Below, piece by piece: positions 4,323-59,135 of a stretch of DNA of 64,000 bases. The notes beneath the pieces were generated by a model, which saw only the letters and a list, made by a program, of their open reading frames with translations, did no database searches and was not told the DNA's origin. The position numbers and the translations under genes were made by a program. The stretch comes from Promicromonospora soli (GTDB taxonomy: Bacteria > Actinomycetota > Actinomycetes > Actinomycetales > Cellulomonadaceae): NCBI RefSeq assembly GCF_014653785.1, contig NZ_BNAS01000010.1, positions 62,001 through 126,000 of the forward strand, in the 5' to 3' direction. Positions within the stretch are counted from its first letter, which is position 1. Each line of letters begins with the position of its first letter.

Positions 4323-5246
4323 TCAGTCGGTCAGCGGGGCGAGGAGCAAGGTCCCCGCGTCCGCATCGAGCGCGCATTCGACCCCGAGCGGGACGGATAC
4401 CGGGCTTTCAAGGTGTCCGAGCGGTAGCCCGGCGAGGACGGGCACTCCGAGCGAACCCAATCGGTCGTGGAGTACGTCCAAGACGGTCCATCCGCGGTCC
4501 TGGTACCCCTCGAACCCCTCGAGCACCCCGACCGCCACGCCCGAGACCTTTGCGAGCGCACCGGACAGCAGCAGCTGGGTCAGAGCGCGGTCGACCATCC
4601 CGAGACCGGCCGCACGATTGATCTCCAACAGCAGCACATGGCCGTCGAGGTCGTTGTCCACGACGCCCACGCTGCGAGCCAGCATCTCGAGGTTCCCGCC
4701 GAACAGGGGCCCGGCGACTGTGCCGGTGGTAGTGAGCTCGGCACCGTACTGACCGCGGTCGCTCCGCACCGGTTCGCCGCGCTCGCCAACGAGGAGCCGC
4801 TGAACGGTGCGCGCGTGAGCGCCGGCCACCGCGCCATGGACGGACGGAACGCCGGCCCGATGCCACAGCTGGTGCAGGGCGGTGATGTCGCTGTACCCGA
4901 TGATCGGTTTCGGGTCTGCCCGGAGAGCCTCGGTGTCGACGTCGGCGAGCAGCCGGAGGCTTCCGCACCCGCCCCGCAAGGTCAGGATCGCTCTGACCTC
5001 CGGGTCACGGATCGCGGCGTTGAGATCTGCCGCGCGCCCACTGTCGCTGCCGGCCATGTACCCAAGTCGGTCGGCGGCATGGTCTCCGACGCGCGCCCTG
5101 AAGCCCCAGGACTCGACCGTTGCGACGCTCTCCACCAGCCACGAGTCCTCGCTCCAGCTGGCCGGGGAGACGAGCGCGATGAGGTCGTCGGGCTTGAGCC
5201 TCGGTATCGGAGCCACATCGAACCGGGGCTCGGGCAGTCGCGACAT
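4323..5246 (-). CDS. LD-carboxypeptidase (S66, muramoyltetrapeptide carboxypeptidase family)
   Basis: A 307-residue serine peptidase that removes the terminal D-residue from tetrapeptides of peptidoglycan or, in MccF-like members, hydrolyses acyl-sulfamoyl adenylates. The N-terminal strand DLIALVSPAS is typical. The catalytic Ser is in GYSDITALH, the Glu in LLLEINRAAG, and the His in PLGHLES, matching the S66 Ser-Glu-His triad in order. No signal peptide, so a cytoplasmic recycling role is expected. Start 5246 is chosen over 5321 because the conserved region begins just downstream and the extra 25 residues are Arg-rich and unlike the family. Confidence 0.88.
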   Translation of the reverse strand: MSRLPEPRFDVAPIPRLKPDDLIALVSPASWSEDSWLVESVATVESWGFRARVGDHAADRLGYMAGSDSGRAADLNAAIRDPEVRAILTLRGGCGSLRLLADVDTEALRADPKPIIGYSDITALHQLWHRAGVPSVHGAVAGAHARTVQRLLVGERGEPVRSDRGQYGAELTTTGTVAGPLFGGNLEMLARSVGVVDNDLDGHVLLLEINRAAGLGMVDRALTQLLLSGALAKVSGVAVGVLEGFEGYQDRGWTVLDVLHDRLGSLGVPVLAGLPLGHLESPVSVPLGVECALDADAGTLLLAPLTD

Positions 5247-13971: not shown

Positions 13972-14038
13972 TTTGTTGCGGGCGTGATCGTTGCGACTGT
14001 CCGCCCGTTTTAGGCGCAACGATCACGCCCACAACAAA
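13972..14038 (+). repeat. 66-bp palindromic element, copy A
   Basis: Begins 3 bp after the transglutaminase-like stop. Terminal inverted repeats of about 23 bp (GGGCGTGATCGTTGCG inside, TTGTTG outside) flank an asymmetric centre that contains CGCCCGTTTTAGGC. Copies B, C and D lie at 41625, 45408 and 59071. Orientation here defined as plus by the centre. Can fold as a terminator between the two convergent genes. Confidence 0.9.
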
Positions 14039-21803: not shown

Positions 21804-22571
21804 ATGAGCGAGTCACAGCAGGAGGCGTGGGTGCGTGTGCACGACCTGCGCGAGCGGTGGCGCGCGACGAGTCTGGCGTCGGTATGGATCCGACCGAATG
21901 ACTGGGAGCACCCGGCCGCAGAAGCGCTGGCCGAGGCGTTGGCCGAGGGCCGCGGCGTGATCGCGCCCGCAGAACGCCTGGGAGCGGCGCGCGCAAGCGT
22001 GGGCGCCGGCATCACGGAGGCGCTCGACGACGTCGCCTGTCTCTACGCCGCGTTCGGCCGCCCCACGGACGTGGGTGCGCTGCGTGCCGCCGCGATCGGC
22101 TGGGTCGGGGAGCGCGAGCGCGCCCCTTACCAGATAGCCACGCACGACCCCTCGACCGGCCTGTCCACCGGCGAGTACCTGGGCGAGCGCCTACGCGAGA
22201 CCTATGGCACGGCGGAGCGTTCCGGCACTACCGCCGGGACCGCACACTGCCTGCTCGTGCTCGACGTCGGCCTCGACAACCTGGACACATGGCAGCGGCT
22301 GGCGCGCTCCGCCGCCATTGGACGGACCCTGCAGCAGGTGTTCGGCGAGGGCCATCCCATGGCCGCGGTCGGCGACGGCACCTTCGTCGTGCTGTGCGAG
22401 CGCGGCCCGGCGACGGCCGAGCTGGGCCAGTCATTGCGCCGCGTCGTCGAGCGCAACGCCGAGGTGCTCGGCCTCCAGACCGAGGTGCGCCGGCCCACCC
22501 GGGTCTGGGTGGAGCGCCTGCCGGGCACGCACGCCGACGCGCTGCTGCTGCTGGACCACCTGGCTCGCTGA
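21804..22571 (+). CDS. degenerate GGDEF-domain protein
   Basis: A 255-residue soluble protein. The C-terminal half matches the diguanylate cyclase fold: DPSTGLSTGEYLGERL stands for the usual DxLTGLxNRxxL, LLVLDVGLDNLD for the metal-binding strand, and AVGDGTFVVLCE occupies the GGDEF position. The active-site Glu pair is gone, so it is almost surely catalytically dead and may bind a nucleotide or another protein. The N-terminal ~110 residues are helical and unassigned. It is divergent from the sigma-factor gene across a 180-bp region, which suggests a functional link. The ribosome site is poor. Confidence 0.68.
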   Translation: MSESQQEAWVRVHDLRERWRATSLASVWIRPNDWEHPAAEALAEALAEGRGVIAPAERLGAARASVGAGITEALDDVACLYAAFGRPTDVGALRAAAIGWVGERERAPYQIATHDPSTGLSTGEYLGERLRETYGTAERSGTTAGTAHCLLVLDVGLDNLDTWQRLARSAAIGRTLQQVFGEGHPMAAVGDGTFVVLCERGPATAELGQSLRRVVERNAEVLGLQTEVRRPTRVWVERLPGTHADALLLLDHLAR

Positions 22572-22591
22572 TATTTCGCAGGGCGAAAACA

Positions 22592-22626
22592 TAGAGCGCC
22601 CACTCGCTGGTCGAGTGGGCGCTCTA
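22592..22626. terminator. bidirectional hairpin terminator
   Basis: Perfect 15-bp arms (22592-22606 and 22612-22626, TAGAGCGCCCACTCG and complement) around a 5-nt loop, between the convergent GGDEF-like and DUF1540 genes. No long T-run. Confidence 0.85.
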
Positions 22627-22657
22627 GTTGGTGGTGGTCCTCAGCGTTGGCGGCCCG

Positions 22658-22966
22658 TCAGCGCGCCTGGAAGGTGAGGCAGTCGGCGTGGCCCGGGTCC
22701 TCGGGGCCGGCGCCCACCCGGATCGACGCGGCGCCGCACTCCAGGTCGTCGTTGTGCACACACTCGGTCCGCTGGCAGGCACCGACGTGGGCGATGACCT
22801 TCTCGAGCCCACCCTTGTGGGTCAGCGGGAAGAACGTGGCGCAGGCGGCGTCGCCCGTGTGCCCCGCGATGGTGACGGCGCCGGCGTGGCAGCCGTGCTC
22901 GTGGTTGTAGCCGCAGCCGTCGATCGTACACTCGGCGACCTCGGGCAATTCCATCAGCGTGCTCAT
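22658..22966 (-). CDS. protein with two DUF1540 domains
   Basis: A 102-residue Cys/His-rich protein. Two copies of the DUF1540 pattern: CTIDGCGYNHEHGCHAGAVTI with a later CATF, and CQRTECVHNDDLECGAASI with a later CLTF. Each copy has four spaced Cys, suitable for a metal site, so a small metal-binding or redox role is likely. GAGGAG precedes the ATG. It stands alone between a terminator and hspR. Confidence 0.88.
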   Translation of the reverse strand: MSTLMELPEVAECTIDGCGYNHEHGCHAGAVTIAGHTGDAACATFFPLTHKGGLEKVIAHVGACQRTECVHNDDLECGAASIRVGAGPEDPGHADCLTFQAR

Positions 22967-24683: not shown

Positions 24684-24710
24684 GGCACCTCCTTCCGCGT
24701 CGATACCGGT

Positions 24711-24750
24711 GGTCGAGCTTGTCGAGACCGGGGCCCCGACAAGCTCGACC
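24711..24750. repeat. inverted pair of the GGTCGAG repeat between grpE and dnaJ
   Basis: GGTCGAGCTTGTCG (24711-24724) and its exact complement (24737-24750) with a 12-nt G/C loop. This copy has CTT for CCT relative to others in the window, on both arms, as expected if the stem is maintained. It may attenuate transcription into dnaJ. Confidence 0.75.
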
Positions 24751-24759
24751 AGCCAGAGA

Positions 24760-29726: not shown

Positions 29727-29766
29727 GTCAGACGTGCAGGTCACCTGGGTGACCTGCACGTCTGAC
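29727..29766. repeat. 40-bp palindromic element, copy P2
   Basis: Same 7-4-7-4-7-4-7 build as copies P1 and P3, here a perfect palindrome apart from the centre: GTCAGAC outside, AGGTCAC inside, spacers GTGC/GCAC paired. It lies 13 bp after the subtilase stop and 40 bp before the dipeptidase start. Confidence 0.9.
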
Positions 29767-29779
29767 ATGTTGGGGAACG

Positions 29780-32700
29780 TCAGCCGACGCGCTTCCAGAC
29801 ACAGCCGACGGTCTCGAAGCCGATCGCGCCGGACGGCATGGTGACCGTTCGGGCCTCGGTCGCGGCACCCTGGCTCACGATGCCGTCGCGGCCGTAGAAG
29901 CCCTTGTAGAACGCGTACCAGCACGGGTCGTTGGGGTCCTTCGGCCCTGCCGTGGTGTACACGCCCCGCTCCAGGTGATCATCGATGACATAGACGCCGT
30001 TGGCGGCCGTCGAGGCCCGCGTCGTGGTCATCCCGGGGTAGTACTTGGTCCAGGTGCCGCAGCTGCTGCTCGACCAGATGAAGTAGTCGCTGGACTGCAC
30101 CTTGAACATGCGCTGGCCGCGGCCGACGTCGTTGGCGAGGAGCACCTCGCTGGGGGAGTACCGCTCCCAGAAGCACTCCGCGGAACCGGCCTGCGCGATG
30201 TAGTTGACCGCCGGCACGCTGTCCGGGCCGACCAGCCAGGCCGTGTTGTCGTTGCCCGGGAACTTCATGGCCGGGGTCAGCACGGCGCCCGTCGCGGAGC
30301 TCCGTCGCGTCGCCGTGCCGTAGCCGGAGCGATAGGTCCGGACCGACACCGTGATCTTCTTCCCGTACTCCGCACCCGTCAGGGCGTAGGTCGAGCTGGT
30401 CGCCCCGGAGATCGGCAGGCCGTCGGCGTACCACCGGTACGAGAACGACGGCGTCGGCGACCATCTACCGACCGAGGCCCGAAGGCTGGACCCGACCCGC
30501 GTGGTGCCCGTGATCGTCGGGACGGACGACGCCGAGTAGCTCGACCCGACCTTCGCAGCGTCCGAGGTGACCGTTCGGGTGGTGTAACCGGTCTTGCTCA
30601 CCGTGGCGCTGACGGTAATCGTGTGGCCCCTCCACGACGACCGGACGCCGAGGCTGGTGCCGGTCGCCCCAGAGATGGATCGCCCGTCGAGCTTCCACCG
30701 GTAGGCGACGGAGGCGGGCACCGGCGTGGACTGCGGGCGGGAGACACTCAGGGTGGCGCCGGGCGTGGCCAGGCCGATGATCACCGGCGCCGACTGGGCG
30801 AAGACACCCGAGGCGACGGTCGCGGACGCGGCACTCGTTCGGCTGGCCGTGGTGAACCCGGTGCGCGTGCCGGTGAGCCGGACCGTGAGCCTCTTGCCCC
30901 GCTGCGTGGCGGAGGGCGTGAACGAGAACCCGGTGGCGCCGCTGATCGCAGCGCCGTCCGCGTACCACTGGTACGTGAACTGGGTGCCCGACGTCCAGGA
31001 GCCTGAGAGCGCCCGGAGGGTGGAGCCGACGCGTACCGTCCCGCTGATCTGCGGGACCGATGCCGCCAGGTCACCGATGGCGACCACCGGCGTCGCCGTG
31101 CTGGTCGTGGAGGTGGGGGTGCGGCCGTCGGCCGAGCCGACGACGGTGACCGTCAGGGTCTTGCCCGCGTCCGCACCCTGCGGGGTGTAGGTCGGCTTGG
31201 TCGCGCCCGAGATCATCTTGGCGCCGTCGCCGTCGCCGGCGTCGCGGCGCCACTGGTAGGTGAACGTCGCAGCCGGGCTCCAGGTGTCCACCGCGGCGGT
31301 CAGCGGCGTCCCGACCTTGTACTCGGCGCCGGAGATGGTCGGCACGGTCGTCGTGTCGAACGCCTGCGCCTGCGCCAGGTTGTATGCCGCCAGGACGTCG
31401 AGCTTGCCCTCGCCCCACACGTTGTTGTCGTCGGCGGTGCCGCCGCAGGACGTGTTGTCCCGATCGACAGCAGAGTCGTCCAGGATCGCCCGGGTGCGCG
31501 GGACGTCGCCCACGAGCTCAGGCACCGCGTCCCACAGGAGCGCGACCGCGCCCGCGACGTGGGGCGCCGCCATGGAGGTGCCGGACCACTCCTCGTAGCC
31601 GCCGCCGGGCACCGCGGAATAGACGGCCCCGCCGGGCGCGGCGATGTCAGGCTTCACGGTGCCGCTCTGGCCGGGGCCGCGCGAGGACCACGGGGCGATG
31701 GCACCGGACGGCCCGAACGCACCCACCGAGTAGGACGCCTGGCGCGATCCGGGGCTGCCGGACGACTCACAGCCCAGCTCGCCGTCGTTACCGTTGGACC
31801 AGGTGCTGAAGATGCCCGCGGCCTCCCAGGCAGCGATCACGTCCTCCATGAACGGGTCGCTCGACAGGGAGAGGCCCCACGAGTTGTTGACGATGTTCGG
31901 GCGCTTGGTCGGGTCGGCGACGGTGCCATCGATGCGGGTCGGCGCCAGGAGCCACTGACCGGACGCGACGAGCGCCGCGTCCGCGCAGGTGTCGGCGCAG
32001 CCGTTCGCCGCGATCCACTGCGCGCCGGGGGCCACCCCGATGTTCGTCGTACCGTCATCGCTGCCCACCATGGTGCCCATGGTGTGGGTGCCGTGGCCGT
32101 TGTCGTCACGCGGGGTGGTGATGCCGCTCCCGGTCGCGTCGAACCAGTTGTAGTTGCTGCCAGAGTCCGCACCGCGGTACTGGACGATGAGCGTGGAGTG
32201 AGCCCGCTCCACGCCGGTGTCCAGGCCGGCCACGACGACGCCGTCGCCGGTGAAGCCGAGACCCCACATGTCGTCGGCGTTGATCGCCTCGATGCCGTAA
32301 GTCGAGTCGGCGGCGGCTGACGGCGCCGCGACGTCCGTCGTCTCGGGCTCCTCGAGCGCGTGCCGCGTCGTCGGGCGAACCTCCAGGACCTGTGCGTCCG
32401 CCGCGAGGTCCGTGGCCAGGTCGAGCGAGCCGTCCTCGACGAGGATCGCGTTGGTGGCCCAGTAGGACGTGTAGTCGGTGCCGGACTTCTCGAGGTCCGC
32501 GACCGCCTTCTTCTGGGCGGACTCGGCCGCCGCGTGGAGCGTGTCGTACACGTACTGGCCGCGCTCGGCCCAGTCAGTGATGCCCTCGGCCGCGGACAGG
32601 TCCGGCTTGTCGGCGAACCGCAGCCAGAAGTCGGTGGTGCCGCGGGCGGTGAAGGCCCTCTTGGCGCCGGGGGTGATCTTGTCGGCGGGGCGCACGGCGC

Positions 32701-32854
32701 CCGGCAGAGCCTGGACGGCGGCGCTGCCGCGGCCGGTGTCGGGTCCGCCGGCGGGGGCGGGGTCCGGGGCGGCGACCGCTGACGCGGGGGACGCGAGGAA
32801 CGCGACCGCGGCGGCCGACGCGACCGCTCGGGTCACGAACGTGCGACGAGGCAT
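29780..32854 (-). CDS. secreted S8 subtilase with Ig-like repeat modules
   Basis: A 1024-residue exported serine protease. Signal peptide at residues 1-28, then a propeptide. The catalytic Asp is in VVVAGLDTGVERAHS (about 211), His in GHGTHTMG (about 253) and Ser in GTSMAAPHVAGAVALL (about 427). After ~495 come four Ig-like modules of about 90 residues with the repeating pattern TYQWYADGxxISGAT and GKxLTVxVTG, which probably bind cell wall or polymer. The last ~150 residues have several Cys and an unassigned fold. GGAG precedes the ATG. Copy P2 of the 40-bp palindrome follows the stop. Confidence 0.95.
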   Translation of the reverse strand: MPRRTFVTRAVASAAAVAFLASPASAVAAPDPAPAGGPDTGRGSAAVQALPGAVRPADKITPGAKRAFTARGTTDFWLRFADKPDLSAAEGITDWAERGQYVYDTLHAAAESAQKKAVADLEKSGTDYTSYWATNAILVEDGSLDLATDLAADAQVLEVRPTTRHALEEPETTDVAAPSAAADSTYGIEAINADDMWGLGFTGDGVVVAGLDTGVERAHSTLIVQYRGADSGSNYNWFDATGSGITTPRDDNGHGTHTMGTMVGSDDGTTNIGVAPGAQWIAANGCADTCADAALVASGQWLLAPTRIDGTVADPTKRPNIVNNSWGLSLSSDPFMEDVIAAWEAAGIFSTWSNGNDGELGCESSGSPGSRQASYSVGAFGPSGAIAPWSSRGPGQSGTVKPDIAAPGGAVYSAVPGGGYEEWSGTSMAAPHVAGAVALLWDAVPELVGDVPRTRAILDDSAVDRDNTSCGGTADDNNVWGEGKLDVLAAYNLAQAQAFDTTTVPTISGAEYKVGTPLTAAVDTWSPAATFTYQWRRDAGDGDGAKMISGATKPTYTPQGADAGKTLTVTVVGSADGRTPTSTTSTATPVVAIGDLAASVPQISGTVRVGSTLRALSGSWTSGTQFTYQWYADGAAISGATGFSFTPSATQRGKRLTVRLTGTRTGFTTASRTSAASATVASGVFAQSAPVIIGLATPGATLSVSRPQSTPVPASVAYRWKLDGRSISGATGTSLGVRSSWRGHTITVSATVSKTGYTTRTVTSDAAKVGSSYSASSVPTITGTTRVGSSLRASVGRWSPTPSFSYRWYADGLPISGATSSTYALTGAEYGKKITVSVRTYRSGYGTATRRSSATGAVLTPAMKFPGNDNTAWLVGPDSVPAVNYIAQAGSAECFWERYSPSEVLLANDVGRGQRMFKVQSSDYFIWSSSSCGTWTKYYPGMTTTRASTAANGVYVIDDHLERGVYTTAGPKDPNDPCWYAFYKGFYGRDGIVSQGAATEARTVTMPSGAIGFETVGCVWKRVG

Positions 32855-33392: not shown

Positions 33393-35825
33393 TCAGGAGA
33401 CCCGCACCCACCGCTCGTCCGCGGTGGTCACCTCGTGCACCTCGCCCGTGATCGTGACCACCGTGCGGGCCGCGGTAGCGGCGGGCGCAGCGGCACCCAG
33501 CATGTCGTTCGGCTCGTCCAGGTCGGCGATGCCCTCGGCCACCACCCTGACAACGCTGTCGGCCGCATGCGCGCCGACCCACACCTCGACGTCGCCGGGC
33601 TCGACGACCCGCACCATCTGGCGGTCGCTGAACGCGAACCGCGCCGTCGGCACGTCGAACGTGATGGTCGTCGACTCCCCCGGCCGCAGCGTGACCCTGT
33701 GGTACCCGAGCAGCTGCGCGGTGGGCCGCGCGACGGAGCCCAGCACGTCGTGCCCGTACAGCTGCACGACGTCGGACCCGGCCACCTCGCCCGTGTTCGT
33801 GACCGACACGACGGCGCGGAACGTGCCGCCCGCCTCGACCGACCGGTCCACGGCGACGAGCTCGCGCGCGAACGTCGTGTACGACAGGCCGAAGCCGAAG
33901 GCGCGCACGGGCGTCGAGTCGGTCGACGTCACCTCGGACGTGCCGCCGAGGATCGGGTGCAGGTACGAGTACGGCTGCGAGCCCGTGGAGCGCGGGAGCG
34001 ACACGGGCAGGCGCCCGGAGGGGTTCACCCGGCCGGAGATCACGCCGGCGAGAGCGGTACCGCCCTCCTCTCCCGGGAAGAACGCCTGGAGCACGGCGCC
34101 GGGCTTCGTGGCTTCGGACTCGCCTGAGCCCGTCGACGGGTCGAGCGCCCAGCCCACCGAGTACGGCCGACCGGTGAGCAGGACCATGACCACGGGCTTG
34201 CCGACGGCGAGCACCGCCTCGACGAGCTGACGCTGCACGCCCGGAAGCTCGAGCGACTCGCTGTCGTTGCCCTCGCCCACGGTGCCGCGGCCGAACAGCC
34301 CGGCCTGGTCGCCGACGACGACCACCGCGACGTCGGCGGCCCCGGCGGCGGCGACGGCCTCGGGGAACCCGGACGTGTCGTCGCCCTCGACGTCGCAGCC
34401 CCGCGCGAACGTGAGCTCGGGTGCGGGCAGGCCCGCGCGGTCGATCTCGACGGCCAGCGCCTCGGCCACGGACGGGATCTCGAACCCGGTCGGAACTTCC
34501 GGGTGGTGCGCGAGCACGTGGTTCGCGAACGAGTAGCAGCCCATCAGCGCCTCGGGGCGGGCCGCGTTCGGACCGATCACGGCCACGCGGGCCGGCTTGT
34601 CGGGCCACGAGCCGAGCGGCAGCACACCGTCGTTCGAGAGCAGCACCACCGACTCCTCGGCGAGCCGCCGGGCGACGTCGCGGTGCGCCGGCGAGTCGAG
34701 GTCCACCACGGCGGGCGGTGCGTCCTCGTACACGTCCGGCTCGAGGAGCCCCAGCTCCTCCTTCTGCTTCAGCGCGCGCAGTACCGCCCGGTCCACGAGC
34801 TCGACCGGCACCGTGCCGTCCATGACGAGCGCGGCGAGCGGCTCGAGGTACGCGTCACCGGACGGCAGCTCGACGTCGACGCCTGCCTCGAGGGCGGCCG
34901 CCGCGGCCGCGCCCCGGTCGGCCGCAATCGCGTGCATGACGTTCAGGAACGCGACGCCGAAGTAGTCGGCGACCACAACGCCGTCGAACCCCCACTGCTC
35001 GCGGAGCAGCTCCGTGAGGTACTCGCCCGACGAGTGCATCGGCACGCCGTCGACGTCGTTGTACGACGCCATGACCGAACGCACGCCGCCGTCGAGCACC
35101 GCCATCTCGAAGGGCGGGAGGTAGACGTCGGCGATCTCGCGGGGGCCCGCGCTCACCGGGGCGTGGTTGCGCCCCGCCTTGGACCCGGAGTACGCCACGA
35201 AATGCTTGAGCGTGGCGTGCACGCCCGCGCCCTGCAGCCCGCGGACGTACGAGGTGCCGACGGTCCCGACCAGGTACGGGTCCTCACCGATGCACTCGTC
35301 GACGCGCCCCCACCGGGGGTCGCGGACGACGTCGAGCACCGGCGCGAGTCCCTGGTGGATACCGAGCTCCCGCATGGACTCCCCGATGAGTCGGCCCATC
35401 TCGGCGACCAGGTCGGGGTCGAAGGAGGCACCCCACGCGAGCGGCGTCGGGAAGGTGGCCGCCTGCCAGGCCGCCAGCCCCGTGAGGCACTCCTCGTGGA
35501 CCAGCGCGGGGATCCCGAGGCGTGTCTCGCGCTTGAGCCTGCGCTGCTCGTCCCAGAGCCACGCAGCGCGCTCGGCCGGGTCCACCGGCCGCGTGCCGTA
35601 CACGCGGGTGAAGTGGCCCAGACCGTTCTTCGTGATCTCCGGGAGCGTCGAGGGCTGGCCGCCGGCCATCTCGCCCTGCATCGGCGCCACCACGTTGCCA
35701 CCCTGGTCCAGCCAGTACCCGACCAGCTGGGCGAGCTTCTCCTCGAGGGTCATCTGGGCGTGCAGCTCGCGCACGCGCTCCGACACCTCGGGCATCGCCC
35801 GAAGCGCCACCGGCAGCTCCGTCAT
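33393..35825 (-). CDS. GH3 beta-glycosidase (beta-xylosidase/glucosidase), intracellular
   Basis: An 810-residue GH3 enzyme. The (beta/alpha)8 domain has LKHFVAYSGSKAGRNHAPVS and the nucleophile Asp in GVVVADYFGV; Tyr after the Asp, instead of Trp, is seen in BxlA-type beta-xylosidases. The alpha/beta sandwich and a C-terminal FnIII-like domain (YTTFARELVAVDRSV onward) complete it. No signal peptide, so it hydrolyses imported oligosaccharides. The ATG at 35825 has AAAGGA at 7 nt; a start at 35849 is less likely. It follows the sugar ABC genes, as bxlA follows bxlEFG in Streptomyces, so xylobiose is the leading substrate guess. Confidence 0.92.
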   Translation of the reverse strand: MTELPVALRAMPEVSERVRELHAQMTLEEKLAQLVGYWLDQGGNVVAPMQGEMAGGQPSTLPEITKNGLGHFTRVYGTRPVDPAERAAWLWDEQRRLKRETRLGIPALVHEECLTGLAAWQAATFPTPLAWGASFDPDLVAEMGRLIGESMRELGIHQGLAPVLDVVRDPRWGRVDECIGEDPYLVGTVGTSYVRGLQGAGVHATLKHFVAYSGSKAGRNHAPVSAGPREIADVYLPPFEMAVLDGGVRSVMASYNDVDGVPMHSSGEYLTELLREQWGFDGVVVADYFGVAFLNVMHAIAADRGAAAAAALEAGVDVELPSGDAYLEPLAALVMDGTVPVELVDRAVLRALKQKEELGLLEPDVYEDAPPAVVDLDSPAHRDVARRLAEESVVLLSNDGVLPLGSWPDKPARVAVIGPNAARPEALMGCYSFANHVLAHHPEVPTGFEIPSVAEALAVEIDRAGLPAPELTFARGCDVEGDDTSGFPEAVAAAGAADVAVVVVGDQAGLFGRGTVGEGNDSESLELPGVQRQLVEAVLAVGKPVVMVLLTGRPYSVGWALDPSTGSGESEATKPGAVLQAFFPGEEGGTALAGVISGRVNPSGRLPVSLPRSTGSQPYSYLHPILGGTSEVTSTDSTPVRAFGFGLSYTTFARELVAVDRSVEAGGTFRAVVSVTNTGEVAGSDVVQLYGHDVLGSVARPTAQLLGYHRVTLRPGESTTITFDVPTARFAFSDRQMVRVVEPGDVEVWVGAHAADSVVRVVAEGIADLDEPNDMLGAAAPAATAARTVVTITGEVHEVTTADERWVRVS

Positions 35826-35856
35826 CGAAATCCTTTCATGGTCCTGCATGTATGCC

Positions 35857-35924
35857 CCGCTTGAAACGTGTGCCCGCTTGAAACGTGTGCCCGCTTGAAA
35901 CGTGTGCCCGCTCGGAACGTGTGC
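35857..35924. repeat. four tandem 17-bp units between permease and GH3 genes
   Basis: Units start at 35857, 35874, 35891 and 35908, each CCGCTTGAAACGTGTGC; the last has CTCGGAACG. Each holds GAAACG, a half-site seen in LacI operators, in the same orientation. It sits in the 117-bp gap between the MalG-type permease and the GH3 gene and may tune GH3 expression. Confidence 0.85.
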
Positions 35925-35942: not shown

Positions 35943-36848
35943 TCAGCCCTTGACTGCTCCCGTGAGGCCGCCGACGATGCGCCGCTGCATGGCCAGGAAG
36001 AACACGAGGGCGGGGATCATGGCGAGCGTCGTGAAGGCGAACACACCTGCCGTGTCCGAGGCATGCTCCGACGAGAAGTCGGCGACCCCGAGCGGCAGCG
36101 TCTTCATTTCCGACTGCAGCAGGAGCAGCGGCAGCAGGTAGGCGTTCCACGACCCGACGAACGCCAGCACGCCGACCGTCACCATCCCCGGACCGGACAA
36201 CGGCAGGACGATGCGCCAGAAGAAGCCGATCCGGGATGTGCCGTCGAGCTGCGCGGCCTCCTCGAGCTCCTTCGGGAGCGCGGCGAGGAACGGCCGCAGG
36301 ATCACCACGGTCACAGGCAGGGCGAACGCCGCTTGCGGCAGCGCCACGCCGATCCACGTGTTCCCCAGCTGCAGGTTCTGCGTGATGAGGATGAACAGCG
36401 GGACGATCGCCACGGTCGCGGGGAAGAGCAGGCCCACCACGAAGACCATGAACAGTCCCTCGCGGCCCTTGAACTGGTACCGGGCCAGCGGGTAGGCCGC
36501 CATCACGCCGAACACCACCGTGATCGCAGTGGTCAGCACGGCGATGATCGTCGAGTTGAGCGCGTACTGCCAGAAGCTGGGGCCGGTCAGGACGCCCACG
36601 TAGTTGTCGAGCACCCACGGGCTCGGCAGGCCCGACGGGTCCTGAGCGATCTGCGCGTTGGTGCGGAAGCCGCCCAGCACGCCGTAGAGCACCGGCCCCA
36701 GCGTGAGGGCCACGACCACGAGGGCGATCCCGTAGACGATCGGGTGGCCGCCCCCGTAGGAACCCCGCTTCCGGGTCCGGTTGCGGTTCTGGGTCCCGTT
36801 GCGGGTGGAAGGGGCGCGCATGAGGACGCCCGCGTTCGAGGCACTCAC
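35943..36848 (-). CDS. carbohydrate ABC transporter permease (MalG type)
   Basis: A 301-residue inner-membrane permease with six predicted helices and the EAA loop ELEEAAQLDGTSRIGFFWRIVLPLSGPG that contacts the ATPase. It has the MalG-type ending (MQRRIVGGLTGAVKG). The GTG at 36848 overlaps the preceding permease stop (GTGA). The N-terminal ~35 residues are unusually Arg/Asn-rich (STRNGTQNRNRTRKRG). The ATPase is not encoded here; as in other actinobacterial sugar systems a shared MsiK-like ATPase is expected. Confidence 0.95.
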   Translation of the reverse strand: MSASNAGVLMRAPSTRNGTQNRNRTRKRGSYGGGHPIVYGIALVVVALTLGPVLYGVLGGFRTNAQIAQDPSGLPSPWVLDNYVGVLTGPSFWQYALNSTIIAVLTTAITVVFGVMAAYPLARYQFKGREGLFMVFVVGLLFPATVAIVPLFILITQNLQLGNTWIGVALPQAAFALPVTVVILRPFLAALPKELEEAAQLDGTSRIGFFWRIVLPLSGPGMVTVGVLAFVGSWNAYLLPLLLLQSEMKTLPLGVADFSSEHASDTAGVFAFTTLAMIPALVFFLAMQRRIVGGLTGAVKG

Positions 36849-40484: not shown

Positions 40485-41621
40485 ATGAGCTCCCCCACCC
40501 GCCGCACGCCAGAGCCGACGCCGTGGCACGTCCTCGAGGTGCAGGCCGTACCTTCGGTCGATCACCCCGACGCCTGGACGTACCACGGCATGGCCGCCGT
40601 CGACCAGGCGCTGGAGATCGCGAACCTTGGTTACGACGACCTCGCCCGCCCGGTGCAGCAGATCGTCAGCGGCATGCAGCACCAGGAGTACGCGCGCAAG
40701 CAGCGGTTCGTCGCGGTCCTGGACCGGCCGGACGGCGTCGAGCCGACCGCCGACGACGTCGTCGGGTTCGGGTTCCTCGCGCTGCCGCTCACGGAGAACA
40801 CGCACACCGCCGACGTCTACGTGGGTGTCCACCCGGACCACCGGCTGCGCGGCATCGGCTCAGCCCTGGCCGACCGGCTGGAACAGGCAGCGGCCGACGC
40901 CGGCCGGACCACGTTCTTCGGCTGGTCGCTGTCGCCTCGGGAAGCGGCCGAGGGCGAGGACGCGCTGGTGCCGGCCACCGGCGCCGGGCGGCTCCCTGCC
41001 GACACTGCGGGTGCCCGGTTCGCGCTCGACCGCGGGTACACGATCGAGCAGGTGGAGCGCATGTCGCGGCTCGACCTGCCGGTGGACCCGGACAAGCTGG
41101 CGGCGTTCGAGGCTGAGGCACGTGCGAAGGCAGGCGACGACTACCGGACGCACACGTGGGAGGGCATCCCCGAGGAGTGGTACGAGGGATATGCCCAGCT
41201 CATGACCCGGATGTCGACGGACGTGCCGCAGGGCGAGCTCGACTTCGGCGAGGAGGCGTGGGACGCCGAGCGCGTCCGCGTCTACCTCGAGGAGCGCACC
41301 GCCAGCGGCCAGCGCCTGCTGACCACCCTGGTGGAGCACGTCCCGTCCTGCGAGGTCGTGGGCGGCACCTCGTTCCTGCTGCAGGACGGCAAGCCGTCGT
41401 TCGTGTTCCAGGAGGAGACGATCGCGCTGAAGTCCCACCGCGGGCACCGGCTCGGGATGCTCGTCAAGGCCGTGAACCTGCGCGAGCTCGCCGCCCGGTA
41501 CCCGCAGACCGAGCGCGTGCACACGTTCAACGCCGAGGAGAACGCGCACATGCTGGGCATCAACGTGGCGCTCGGGTTCCGGCCGTCGGGCGCGGAGGCG
41601 GCACTCCAGAAGCGCCTCTAG
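40485..41621 (+). CDS. tandem-GNAT acetyltransferase
   Basis: A 378-residue protein with two GNAT folds. The first CoA site is VYVGVHPDHRLRGIGSALADRLE (about residues 108-130), the second is ETIALKSHRGHRLGMLVKAVNLREL with the ending FNAEENAHMLGINVALGFRP. Domain order and length recall mycothiol synthase, but the sequences are distinct and it has a close paralogue at 44271. Substrate unknown; resistance or amine detoxification are possible. A copy of the 66-bp palindrome starts 4 bp after its stop. Confidence 0.85.
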   Translation: MSSPTRRTPEPTPWHVLEVQAVPSVDHPDAWTYHGMAAVDQALEIANLGYDDLARPVQQIVSGMQHQEYARKQRFVAVLDRPDGVEPTADDVVGFGFLALPLTENTHTADVYVGVHPDHRLRGIGSALADRLEQAAADAGRTTFFGWSLSPREAAEGEDALVPATGAGRLPADTAGARFALDRGYTIEQVERMSRLDLPVDPDKLAAFEAEARAKAGDDYRTHTWEGIPEEWYEGYAQLMTRMSTDVPQGELDFGEEAWDAERVRVYLEERTASGQRLLTTLVEHVPSCEVVGGTSFLLQDGKPSFVFQEETIALKSHRGHRLGMLVKAVNLRELAARYPQTERVHTFNAEENAHMLGINVALGFRPSGAEAALQKRL

Positions 41622-41624
41622 TTC

Positions 41625-41691
41625 CTTGTTGTGGGCGCGATCGTTGCGCCTAAAACGGGCAGGATGTCGCAACGATCACGCCCACAACAAG
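41625..41691 (-). repeat. 66-bp palindromic element, copy B
   Basis: Inverted orientation relative to copies A and C (centre reads GCCTAAAACGGGC). It starts 4 bp after the GNAT stop and ends 4 bp before the stop of the convergent GH3 gene. Confidence 0.9.
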
Positions 41692-44270: not shown

Positions 44271-45398
44271 ATGACCTCCTCAACCTCGGCAGTACCCGCC
44301 CCGGCGACGTCGGCGTGGCGGCTGATGACCCCACCGCACCCGTCCTCCCTGGAGGACCCGCAGGCATGGGCGTACCGGGGCCTCGCCGAGCTCCACGCGG
44401 CGGCGCAGCGCGCCGACCTCGGCAACGCCGACAACGCCCCGACGCCGATCGGGATCCTGGTGGGGATGAACAACCAGGAGTACATGCGCAAGCCGCGGCA
44501 GATCGCCGTGGTGGACACGCCTGACGGGCCGCTGGTGGTGGGCGAGGCGATGGTGTTTCTCCGCGTGCGGTCGAACCTGGAGCTGGCAAGCTGCATAGTC
44601 GTCGTGCACCCGGATCATCGGGGACAGGGCATCGGCACCGCCCTGGCCGGATGGGCGAACAGCACGGCCCGGGCGGAGGGCCGGACGTCGCTCCTGGCCT
44701 ACGTCGACTTCGGGCCGGAGGGCGCCGACGGCGAGACGCTGGCCCCGGCGTCAGGCAACGGGCGCGTGTCCGCAGACCTGCCGGGCGTGCGGATGGCCCG
44801 CAAGCTGGGCCTGACCCTGCAGATCGTGGAGCGCCGGTCCCGGCTCGACCTGCCGGTCCCGCCCGAGACGGTGGCGCGTTTCGAGGCCGAGGCGCGCGCC
44901 GCCGCAGGTGACGCGTACCGCATCCATACCTGGGCCGCCCCGACGCCGGAGGCGTGGGTCGCCCAGTACGCCGCGCTGGAGCAGGCCCTGGCCGACGACG
45001 AGCCGCGCGGCGGTCTCGACATGGAGTCGGATGTCTGGGACGCCGACCGCATCCGCGTCGAGGATGCGGCGATCGCCGCGAAGGGCGACCAGTACGTGGT
45101 GACCGCCGCCGAGCACGTGGCCACGGGCGAGCTCGTCGCGATGACCATGCTGATGTGGAACGACCAGAAGCCGGAGCACACCGACCAGCAGGCGACGGTC
45201 GTGCTCGGGGCGCACCGGGGGCACCGGCTCGGGATGCTCGTCAAGGCGGTGAACCTGCGCGAGCACGCCCGGCTCCGGCCCGGCGCCCGCCGCATCTACA
45301 CCTGGAACAACGAGGAGAACCCGCACATGCTCGCGATCAACGTGGCGCTCGGGTTCGCCCCCGCCGGCGGCTGCGCGAACTTCCAGGGCCCACTCTGA
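44271..45398 (+). CDS. tandem-GNAT acetyltransferase (paralogue of the protein at 40485)
   Basis: A 375-residue two-domain GNAT protein. First CoA site CIVVVHPDHRGQGIGTALAGWA, second TVVLGAHRGHRLGMLVKAVNLREHA, with NNEENPHMLAINVALGFAP at the end. It shares nearly every motif with the 40485 protein, including NNQEYMRKPRQIAVVD versus HQEYARKQRFVAVLD, so a local duplication is clear. Each copy is followed by a 66-bp palindrome, but in opposite orientations. Substrate unknown. Confidence 0.85.
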   Translation: MTSSTSAVPAPATSAWRLMTPPHPSSLEDPQAWAYRGLAELHAAAQRADLGNADNAPTPIGILVGMNNQEYMRKPRQIAVVDTPDGPLVVGEAMVFLRVRSNLELASCIVVVHPDHRGQGIGTALAGWANSTARAEGRTSLLAYVDFGPEGADGETLAPASGNGRVSADLPGVRMARKLGLTLQIVERRSRLDLPVPPETVARFEAEARAAAGDAYRIHTWAAPTPEAWVAQYAALEQALADDEPRGGLDMESDVWDADRIRVEDAAIAAKGDQYVVTAAEHVATGELVAMTMLMWNDQKPEHTDQQATVVLGAHRGHRLGMLVKAVNLREHARLRPGARRIYTWNNEENPHMLAINVALGFAPAGGCANFQGPL

Positions 45399-45407
45399 GC
45401 TTGCCGT

Positions 45408-45472
45408 TTGTTGTGGGCGTGATCGTTGCGACTACCTGCCCGCTTTAGGCGCAACGATCACGCCCACAACAA
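45408..45472 (+). repeat. 66-bp palindromic element, copy C
   Basis: Same orientation as copy A (centre GACTACCTGCCCGCTTTAGG). It begins 9 bp after the GNAT stop and ends 7 bp before the stop of the convergent M81 gene. Confidence 0.9.
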
Positions 45473-47023: not shown

Positions 47024-47461
47024 TCAGTCGTCGCCCTGACCGTCGTCGTCAGCGTCGTCCAGGCCGTCATCCGAGTCGTCGTCCTGGGCGTAGCGCGAGT
47101 CGTTCGGCGAGTCAGCCGACTGCGCGGAACCCGCGGTGTCCGTCGCCGACTCGTTCGGGGAGTCGGCCGACTCCGGCGAAGGGTCGTAGTTCGCGTCGCC
47201 CGGCGAGTCCGCCGACTGCGCGGAACCCGCGGTGTCGCGGGCGGACTCGTTCGGTGAGTCCGCGGACTCCGGCGAAGCGTCGTTGGTCGCGGCGGCCGTA
47301 CCGTCGTCGGACGGCGTCGCGCCGTCCAGGGCGACGGCGGCGGACGACTCGGCCCGCGGGGCGGGGTCGTTCAGCGCCGCGGCGGTGCCCGCGCCTGCGA
47401 TTCCGAGCACGGCGGCCGCACCGACGATTGCCCAGCGCTTCTTCATGGTTGAAGGGTTCAT
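47024..47461 (-). CDS. acidic repeat-containing exported protein
   Basis: A 145-residue protein. Signal-like N-terminus (MKKRWAIVGAAAVLGIAGAGTAAA) and then a disordered region rich in Asp, Ser, Ala, Asn. Two near-identical segments of about 31 residues, each with PESADSPNESA and DTAGSAQSADSP, are followed by an Asp-rich tail (QDDDSDDGLDDADDD). It may bind Ca2+ or another cation outside the cell. GGAG 11 nt before the ATG at 47461 favours that start. It lies 142 bp after the response-regulator gene on the same strand and could be a target of that system. Confidence 0.65.
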   Translation of the reverse strand: MNPSTMKKRWAIVGAAAVLGIAGAGTAAALNDPAPRAESSAAVALDGATPSDDGTAAATNDASPESADSPNESARDTAGSAQSADSPGDANYDPSPESADSPNESATDTAGSAQSADSPNDSRYAQDDDSDDGLDDADDDGQGDD

Positions 47462-49756: not shown

Positions 49757-51021
49757 CCGCTGCCCGCGCCGGACGGCGCGAGCCTGGTCCCGCCGAGCCT
49801 GCTCCCGTCGAGCCAGGCGGCGACGACGTCCAGGCGGCGCGACGTCGCCGCCTTCCAGCCGCGCTCCTGCACCCGGTGCGGGCCCGTGGCCAGGGACAGC
49901 AGCACCCCGGCGACGCGGGCGGCCAGGTCGCTCAGGTCCGCGCCCCGGCTTCCAGGGGCGGCCACGAACCCCGCCGCGTAGTCCGCAGCGAGCCGGCGCA
50001 TCCGGGCCGCGCGCTCGGTCTGGGCGGGGTCGGACCCGGTCACGAGGGACAGCACGTCGAGGTGAGCGACGAGGCACGCGAGGTCGTCGGCGCGATGGCC
50101 GGGACCGGCTGAGTCGACGTCGAGCAGCCCGGTGATCCGGCCCTCGTTGAGCATGATCTGCGCCTCGTACAGGTCGCCGTGGGTGGGATCGGCCCCGGCT
50201 CCGCGTTCCGCGAGGCGCGCCACGACGGCGCCGGCCAGGTCGGTGGCCCGGCCCGCCTCCGCCGGCAGCGCCGCCCCGATCACGCCCGCGTAGTGCTCGG
50301 CCGACTCGCTCCAGGCGGGGCGGCGCGGCAGGTCGCGCACGTCCGCGGGCAGCCGGTCGAGAAGGTCCAGCACCTCCGCCGGGGACGGGATCCGGCCCCC
50401 GTTGCGGACCGCGGAACGCATCTCGGTGCCGTGCAGCGGGGACAGCACGAGGAGGCCGTCGTCGGACCAGCCGAGGGGGCGCGGGACGGGCAGCCCGGCC
50501 CGCGACAGCAGAGTGTGCCGCTGGTGCAGGTCCGCGACCTTGCGCGGGCGCAGCACCTTGAGGAACACCCGGGCGGACGCCGCCCGGGCCTCGATCACCG
50601 CGCGCCGGGTCGGCCGGTAGGCCCGGACCTTGAGCTCCGGGTCTGCGCGCGCCTCCGGGCCGACGCCGAGCCCGGCCAGCAGCTCTTCGACGGCGGCGGG
50701 GTTGAACGCTCGCGGCAGCGCGGGCAGTGCCGGGTCGCCGGGAAACCGCCAGACGGCGACCGTCGCGTCGCCGTCGGACAGCGTGACCACACCCGGCTTG
50801 CGCCCGTCGCGCGATCGGCCGACGCTCGCGCCGAGCGTCTCGGAGCGCTCCACGCCGTCCCAGCGCACGGTTGCCCGGTACGCCACCGTGGTGGTCGAGC
50901 CGGGCCGATGGTCCACCTGGCGTACCCGCCAGTCCACGAGCTCGCCGCCTGCCGTCGCCACCGCCGCGTCGAGGAGGCCCGCGGCGGCTTCACCGGTCAA
51001 CAGGTCGAGGTGCGTGTTCAC
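49753..51021 (-). CDS. aminoglycoside-phosphotransferase-like kinase
   Basis: A 422-residue protein of the APH/choline-kinase fold. The C-lobe has ADPTHGDLYEAQIML and LLDVDSAGPGHRADDL, matching the Brenner and DFG-like motifs, but the Asn usually eight residues after the His is Gln. The N-terminal ~130 residues form an extra domain. The GTG at 51021 has GAGGA before it. It heads a three-gene operon with the HK and RR. A small-molecule kinase is likely; antibiotic resistance is not supported by context. Confidence 0.78.
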   Translation of the reverse strand: MNTHLDLLTGEAAAGLLDAAVATAGGELVDWRVRQVDHRPGSTTTVAYRATVRWDGVERSETLGASVGRSRDGRKPGVVTLSDGDATVAVWRFPGDPALPALPRAFNPAAVEELLAGLGVGPEARADPELKVRAYRPTRRAVIEARAASARVFLKVLRPRKVADLHQRHTLLSRAGLPVPRPLGWSDDGLLVLSPLHGTEMRSAVRNGGRIPSPAEVLDLLDRLPADVRDLPRRPAWSESAEHYAGVIGAALPAEAGRATDLAGAVVARLAERGAGADPTHGDLYEAQIMLNEGRITGLLDVDSAGPGHRADDLACLVAHLDVLSLVTGSDPAQTERAARMRRLAADYAAGFVAAPGSRGADLSDLAARVAGVLLSLATGPHRVQERGWKAATSRRLDVVAAWLDGSRLGGTRLAPSGAGSG

Positions 51022-59070: not shown

Positions 59071-59135
59071 TTGTTGTGGGCGGGATCGTTGCGCCTAAAA
59101 CGGGCACGTAGTAGCAACGATCACGCCCCAACAAA
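59071..59135 (-). repeat. 66-bp palindromic element, copy D
   Basis: Inverted orientation like copy B (centre GCCTAAAACGGGC). It starts 6 bp after the HxlR stop and has one base missing in its distal arm (GCCCCAACAA). It is the only copy with no convergent gene next to it. Confidence 0.88.

Follow-up and report, generated by a model that had tools for sequence, protein, structure and literature searches.

A 65-bp palindromic element behind stop codons in Promicromonospora shares its gene ends with unrelated palindrome families

Introduction

What is a palindrome that recurs, in both orientations, directly behind the stop codons of different genes: a mobile repeat that favours gene ends, or a terminator retained there? 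The question is raised by four such copies in a 64,000-nucleotide stretch of Promicromonospora soli DNA, the window of this report (C10:62001-126000 in the assembly numbering used here). Dispersed bacterial palindromes are known best through REPs and their RAYT transposases; here several families occur, and no RAYT was found. The setting is a natural experiment in the spread of short repeats that have no known transposase, and in whether such repeats become useful transcription boundaries. U-tract terminators are said to be rare in GC-rich actinobacteria, which, if a boundary role of these elements is true, would have a recognisable gene-end signal.

Results and Discussion

Four copies in the window

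The copies, members of what is designated family I below, are these:

13972..14038, plus strand: copy A of the family I palindrome, at site E20; the flanking transglutaminase-like and Sir2 genes converge
41625..41691, minus strand: copy B of the family I palindrome, at site E21; the flanking GNAT and GH3 genes converge
45408..45472, plus strand: copy C of the family I palindrome, at site E22; the flanking GNAT and M81-peptidase genes converge
59071..59135, minus strand: copy D of the family I palindrome, with one imperfect arm, behind the stop of an HxlR gene in a tandem context

An earlier note on this DNA had described four copies of about 66 bp at these places, with A and C in plus and B and D in minus orientation, each beginning 3-9 bp behind a stop codon. 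We confirmed the copies and their orientations; the arm pattern has seven matches in the window, against none per shuffle (n=100). The distances hold too, the 65-nt core lying 3 and 5 nt from its stops in A, 4 and 5 nt in B, 9 and 7 nt in C, and 6 nt from the upstream stop in D. Copies A, B and C each adjoin two stop codons because their flanking genes converge. The note's statement that nothing links the four genes fails for B and C, both of which lie behind similar GNAT acetyltransferase genes (40485-41621 and 44325-45398; DNA 86% alike over 85 nt and 77% over 79 nt), and stands for the remaining neighbours (transglutaminase-like, Sir2, GH3, M81 peptidase, HxlR and HicB), which are unrelated. 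An Rfam scan of the window at the gathering threshold returned a single tRNA and no match to the palindrome. A full-text literature search, whose scope left out most subscription journals, gave no description of these elements among the matches listed.

The window also contains tandem repeats. Minus-strand genes 33393-35825 and 35943-36848 are separated by a short spacer with four 17-bp units (CCCGCTTGAAACGTGTG) at 35856-35923, of which the last has diverged, and a 96-bp tandem pair (84% alike) occupies 47086-47277 inside a minus-strand gene called at 47024-47446.

Copy number and anatomy of family I

Across the P. soli genome (5.38 Mb, 20 contigs), the oriented centre of the element matches 89 times with at most three mismatches, 47 forward and 42 reverse, while the reversed-pattern control for centre and arms has no match. 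Ungapped comparison with a 65-nt template (at least 40 identities, over loci with earlier pattern matches) found at least 93 elements, a lower bound, since the comparison admitted no gaps and was confined to pattern-hit regions, and since some copies adjoin gaps in the assembly. Such a scan would miss length variants, and some copies do differ in length in relatives, where a few model matches lack one or two bases or have one extra. N-runs lie near or inside family I elements of the assembly (locus L157 near 5070-5150, on contig C8, and loci L124 and L164); repeat copies therefore seem to cause assembly gaps, so that counts are lower bounds. The genome-wide search that the earlier note had proposed thus revealed neither four copies only nor a scatter of random positions, but many copies of one fixed structure.

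After omission of two elements with internal N-runs, 91 copies align without gaps at a mean column identity of 88%. Stem-loops in general prefer, and are common at, the 3' ends of bacterial genes, as PMC1590033 reports, and from this one might suppose a chance set of look-alike ordinary terminators; the alignment and the zero control in P. soli refute that idea, which keeps next to no credibility.

The arms occupy positions 1-23 and 43-65. Inward of them come a mismatch at 24/42, which in 67 of 92 copies is A·G, then a short pairing of 25-27 with 39-41, and finally a loop at 28-38. The centre is asymmetric, and GNCCG stands at loop positions 31-35 in 87 of the 93 copies. Outward, the palindrome extends weakly for about 5 nt, C-rich on the left and G-rich on the right. 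Arm positions covary: pair 2/64 is GC in 44 copies and TA in 26, pair 4/62 TA in 75 and CG in 6. With the stem imposed on the 91 rows, there are 64 two-sided-change cells against 35.9 after shuffling, and no shuffle reached the covariation score, although pairs with two-sided change (6 against 5.7) and further pair types (22 against 21.0) do not exceed this control, which ignores the relatedness of copies.

Placement behind stop codons

By the calls of a simple codon-usage gene caller, some of which may be wrong, the 93 copies comprise 52 between convergent genes, 34 in tandem spacers, 6 in divergent spacers, and 1 called inside a gene. For 81 of the 86 copies in convergent or tandem spacers, a stop codon is no more than 15 nt away, and in 33 of the 34 tandem cases the nearer side is the stop side. 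In a random-placement null of 92 points (2,000 draws over the intergenic bases of family I loci, elements removed), the number within 15 nt of a stop averaged 10.7 and never exceeded 23, and the number in convergent spacers averaged 8.9 with a maximum of 20. Placement directly after stop codons, as claimed from the window, is therefore a genome-wide property. A looser test, in which any frame counts and which has no null, was applied to loci of named genomes: there a stop-like triplet stands no more than 15 nt away, on the proper side, for 56 of 65 elements.

If family I were a selfish miniature mobile element, REP- or MITE-like and moved by some enzyme, it would be kept at gene ends only because insertion does least harm there. 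Its dispersed copies in both orientations, with unrelated flanks, agree with this. Divergent and mid-spacer positions, however, are little used, though tandem and divergent spacers offer most of the intergenic bases (27,040 and 19,917, against 4,986 convergent). An integron attC-like site was also considered and rejected: tandem copies face with the gene in 13 cases and against it in 21, and more than half of all copies (52/93) lie between convergent genes.

Signs of mobility and known systems

The earlier note had likened the element to a mobile palindrome of REP or MITE type. This is partly borne out, by dispersal, both orientations, the tie to gene ends, high copy number and fixed structure; a RAYT, a target-site duplication and a GTAG tag do not appear, and the first two absences count against the selfish reading as well. 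Pfam model PF01797 (Y1_Tnp) has no match at E <= 0.001 in any of the 13 genus genomes, P. soli included; the search covered the Y1_Tnp family and detected it in 5 of 14 control genomes. Around the 93 copies, no flank repeat of 2-9 nt clearly exceeds shuffled pairing, the largest excess (12 against 6.5) being a dinucleotide at uneven offsets. The flank columns are poorly conserved, with neither a GTAG tag at the hairpin foot nor a conserved CGTC; CTAC sits in the apex (positions 25-28), away from the foot. In a search for a vehicle, plasmid and phage collections contained nothing that matches the 71 bases of copy C at E <= 0.01, and the exact 21-base arm is absent from the viral contigs, which again tells against a selfish element. 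The 190 arm matches of P. soli, whose places were listed in part, compare with at least 93 paired elements, so there is little scope for a longer element that shares these ends.

Among known systems, family I behaves most like REPs, which, according to PMC3733652, lie mostly behind genes, between convergent or co-directional ones. GTAG-tagged REPs and REPINs, with their RAYT, are likewise short dispersed palindromes behind genes (PMC3733652), but they are units of 20-40 bp, whereas family I is a 65-bp dyad with an asymmetric centre, lacks the GTAG foot tag, and comes without a Y1 transposase. CGTC-tagged REPs, described in PMC3733652 as palindromes apparently without a dedicated transposase of their own, are similar in that respect and differ in the tag. 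MITEs are short, with inverted ends and no internal gene, and in this resemble family I; they differ in target-site duplication, which family I lacks. The DNA-uptake stem-loops of Haemophilus and Pasteurella are also inverted repeat pairs in intergenic space (PMC1590033), but the uptake sequence is a decamer, often single, while the arms of family I form fixed 65-bp pairs. Compared with stem-loops in general, what is new is a repeated sequence with a constrained centre, together with the turnover of families at the same ends.

Inheritance and constraint

Flanks of the 93 copies, compared by BLAST with the loci of other genomes, gave 27 positional matches with an element, at 23 P. soli sites; 19 match on both flanks and 8 on one, and two are cross-matches between paralogous neighbourhoods. 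Orientation is the same in all 27, which means that the copies are inherited. The presence of both orientations, taken in the earlier note to argue for transposition-like spread, is not by itself a sign of ongoing transposition. Half-arm remnants in relatives show, moreover, that copies decay.

For a test of constraint we kept 22 of the 27 pairs, three one-flank cases among them, and dropped the two cross-matches and three other one-flank cases. In this set the core is 89% identical and the flanks 35-59%, the flank values being gapless, so that indels count against them. Loop positions 31, 33 and 34 are identical in 22/22 pairs. Identity at other loop positions is 91% at 35, 86% at 32, 64% at 28 and 29, 59% at 38, and 45% at 36. 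The overall identity of orthologs is inflated because they were found by similarity, but the contrast within the loop is unaffected, and by this sequence comparison sites 31, 33 and 34 look constrained. Over the 65 positions, orthologs average 57.8 identities, copies within the P. soli genome 55.6, and non-orthologous copies of different genomes 54.2; in 6 of the 27 cases the ortholog is less similar than the median foreign copy. These values and the kept orientation indicate that the copies are inherited, that the centre is constrained, and that the shared consensus is older than these species. Part of the apparent constraint could be overwriting by other copies.

One pair resembled recent copying: the elements at C2:126086 and C8:36450 share 79 identical nt, including 13 nt of one flank with a stop codon. 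The second lies near an N-run, so a repeat-induced misjoin is likelier than fresh copying, and the apparent new copy is probably an assembly error. Among the 181 elements compared, every other pair with at least 63 of 65 positions identical shares at most 6 nt of unbroken flank per side. The site-specific constraint in inherited copies argues further against a purely selfish element, a reading that we regard as rather unlikely.

Hairpin, terminator, or DNA signal

Folding predictions give each of the four window copies a very stable hairpin for either strand, at -41.2 to -53.4 kcal/mol (z -5.6 to -10.5), yet none of 138 transcript ends has TTTT within 12 nt behind the core. A canonical intrinsic terminator is thereby rejected; of the note's suggestion that the element is retained as a terminator, the general idea survives as a possibility and the canonical U-tract form does not.

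Actinobacteria also have U-less (I-shaped) terminators, stable hairpins behind stop codons that lack a U-tract, as family I does. These are not known to be one repeated sequence, whereas family I has its sequence and loop in common at 93 sites. Family I might nevertheless be a bidirectional terminator, or a hairpin that stabilises 3' ends, acting at the RNA level without a U-tract and owing its common sequence to spread by copying. The strong fold on both strands, the location between convergent stop codons, and ordinary GC-rich hairpins at E22 (junction 45398) in three relatives speak for this. Besides the missing U-tract, two observations oppose it. Loop bases that are unpaired in the main fold are among the most constrained. 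G·U mismatches, moreover, do not exceed A·C, either in all copies (52 against 47) or on the transcribed strand of tandem copies (19 against 23, a test with 42 mismatches); with no G·U excess on that strand, recognition as DNA fits better than one RNA hairpin, few as the data are. The loop motif, whose key bases are invariant, could also pair in an alternative inner fold. We judge action at the RNA level to be unlikely.

The reading we prefer, at a probability of about 0.45, takes family I to be a boundary element at gene ends, a 65-bp dyad belonging to one Promicromonospora lineage, which spread earlier and is now inherited; it behaves like a REP, which does not prove it to be one. It would have been copied to some ninety gene ends in the past, and its copies now pass on site by site. 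Most likely it would serve as a putative orientation-independent boundary behind stop codons, halting transcription or shielding 3' ends from either side, and from its sequence and placement we infer that it may mark a transcription boundary for the adjoining genes. Because constraint in the asymmetric centre is site-specific, we suspect that a protein recognises it; the missing RNA-strand bias points to recognition as DNA and not as a hairpin in one transcript.

Distribution in Promicromonospora and beyond

Family I arm matches (both strands, at most two mismatches) number 190 in P. soli, 288 in G188, 92 in G189, 62 in G195, 61 in G191, 47 in G185 and 19 in G186, against 0-1 each in G184, G187, G190, G192, G193 and G194 and none for the controls in all 13 genus genomes. 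The seven carriers thus range from 19 to 288 matches, a spread that suits a selfish element. An unrooted tree of 11 of the 13 genomes (without G184 and G187), built from 20 genes and 18,267 columns, separates the seven carriers from the four non-carriers in it, which group together. A scan of a contig collection found at least 77 loci; among the matches listed, 74 were from Promicromonospora, while the other 3, in unrelated MAGs, covered a single arm.

Beyond the genus, 12 of 18 g9 genomes have a match to model R1 (E <= 1e-4, with 22 candidates scored in each genome), as does one genome each in g4 and g17. Of six such loci read (set L192-L196 and L213), the five of g9 carry the outer arm GTTGTGGGCG, and the g17 locus has a close variant; the inner part of the g9 and g17 palindromes is unlike family I. 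From sequence, the outer arms of family I look like an older module.

Other palindrome families at the same gene ends

Palindrome scans of syntenic stretches in 11 genomes, and of the P. soli family I loci, found several unrelated gene-end palindrome families in Promicromonospora, with very different copy numbers per species:

Family II: GTCAGACGNNCAGGTCACC, gene-end palindrome
Family III: GTTGAGTGCTGG, gene-end palindrome
Family IV: GGTCGAGCTTGTCGAGACC, gene-end palindrome
Family V: GCGAAGTAGAAC units, gene-end palindrome
Family VIII: CCTAGGTTTCTTCGCTTTGA, at four places in two genomes

Two such palindromes lie in the window:

29727..29766, no strand assigned: family II palindrome (GTCAGACG..CAGGTCACC), 13 nt from the stop of minus-strand gene 29780-32836
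24684..24759, no strand assigned: intergenic stretch with a family IV-like palindrome (GGTCGAGCTTGTCGAGACC), read by eye

At orthologs of the latter stretch, 7 of 11 genomes have a IV-like palindrome and 4 another GC-rich hairpin, as read by eye; the automatic label adds G190 to family IV. Family VII was found behind glgC alone (4 of 6 genomes by pattern, 2 by eye) and is a local palindrome.

Copy numbers of the families vary independently among genus genomes. Family II arms match 375 times in G192, 44 in P. soli and 3 in G184, with 0-4 matches per genome outside the genus and 0-2 for controls; family III arms match 166 times in G192, 129 in G186 and 3 in P. soli, and up to 10 times in eight genomes of genus g6. 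Within the syntenic stretches, palindromes lying no more than 20 nt from a stop codon make up 8/8 of family I, 12/16 of II, 10/10 of III, 3/4 of IV, and 11/19 of the others.

Unrelated palindrome families occupy orthologous gene ends in other species. We compared six ends that carry family I in P. soli, a set that is not random: E20-E22 come from the window, E53 from loci already analysed, glgC from a suspected duplication, and E9 was chosen. Family labels were read by eye from the sequences, since loose automatic patterns mislabelled some junctions.

E20 (13972), 13 genus genomes: family I 3, half-arm remnant 2, family II 3, none 5 (four g9 genomes, which have a different downstream gene, are omitted)
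E9, 13 genomes: family I 3, family VIII 1, plain GC hairpin 2, none 7
glgC end, 13 genomes: family I 2, family VII 6, family VIII 2, family V-like 1, none 2 (the P. soli family I copy is near an assembly gap, but G188 also has one there)
E22 (45408), 12 genomes: family I 2, remnant 1, plain hairpins 3, none 6
E21 (41625), 10 genomes: family I 1, remnant 1, family III 4, other or none 4
E53, 5 genomes: family I 2, family III 1, family IV 2

At five of the six ends some relative has another palindrome, the exception being E22, with plain hairpins only. The end at 51021/51208 is similar: family I occurs there in G191, a half-arm in G185, family VIII in G195, a further palindrome in P. soli and G190, and a different one again in G188. 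In many relatives the compared ends hold no palindrome, so the family I element is dispensable there, not essential; such empty ends and the half-arm remnants also suit a selfish element. Without a rooted tree, loss, replacement and independent gain are not always separable at these ends.

Gene ends thus look like contested ground for several small-repeat families. A fuller version of this idea treats them as niches of competing families, each of which would spread by a RAYT-free mechanism of its own that targets the spot behind a stop codon, would become a constrained boundary recognised by a protein, and would later be cleanly replaced; the target would perhaps be an existing hairpin or a terminated transcript, with the glgC end and its four palindromes in 13 genomes as the example. 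We consider this whole sequence of steps improbable.

Individual members of these families show further peculiarities. Family III arms (CGTTGAGTGC) overlap the gene end at L274:4954-5017 (G190), at L263:6596-6658 (G185) and in the G186 ortholog, so that the TGA with which one or both of the convergent genes end is part of the palindrome. Family V palindromes differ from the other families in that each arm looks built of tandem units (CGAAGTAGAACCCTGG), about 16-17 nt long; examples are L117:9115-9176, L137:1646-1709, L108:2510-2600, L131:5196-5283 and one in L328. Junction 22571-22658 and its orthologs, unlike the ends where families are swapped, have related plain hairpins (GAGCGCC..GGCGCTC type) in most of 11 genomes.
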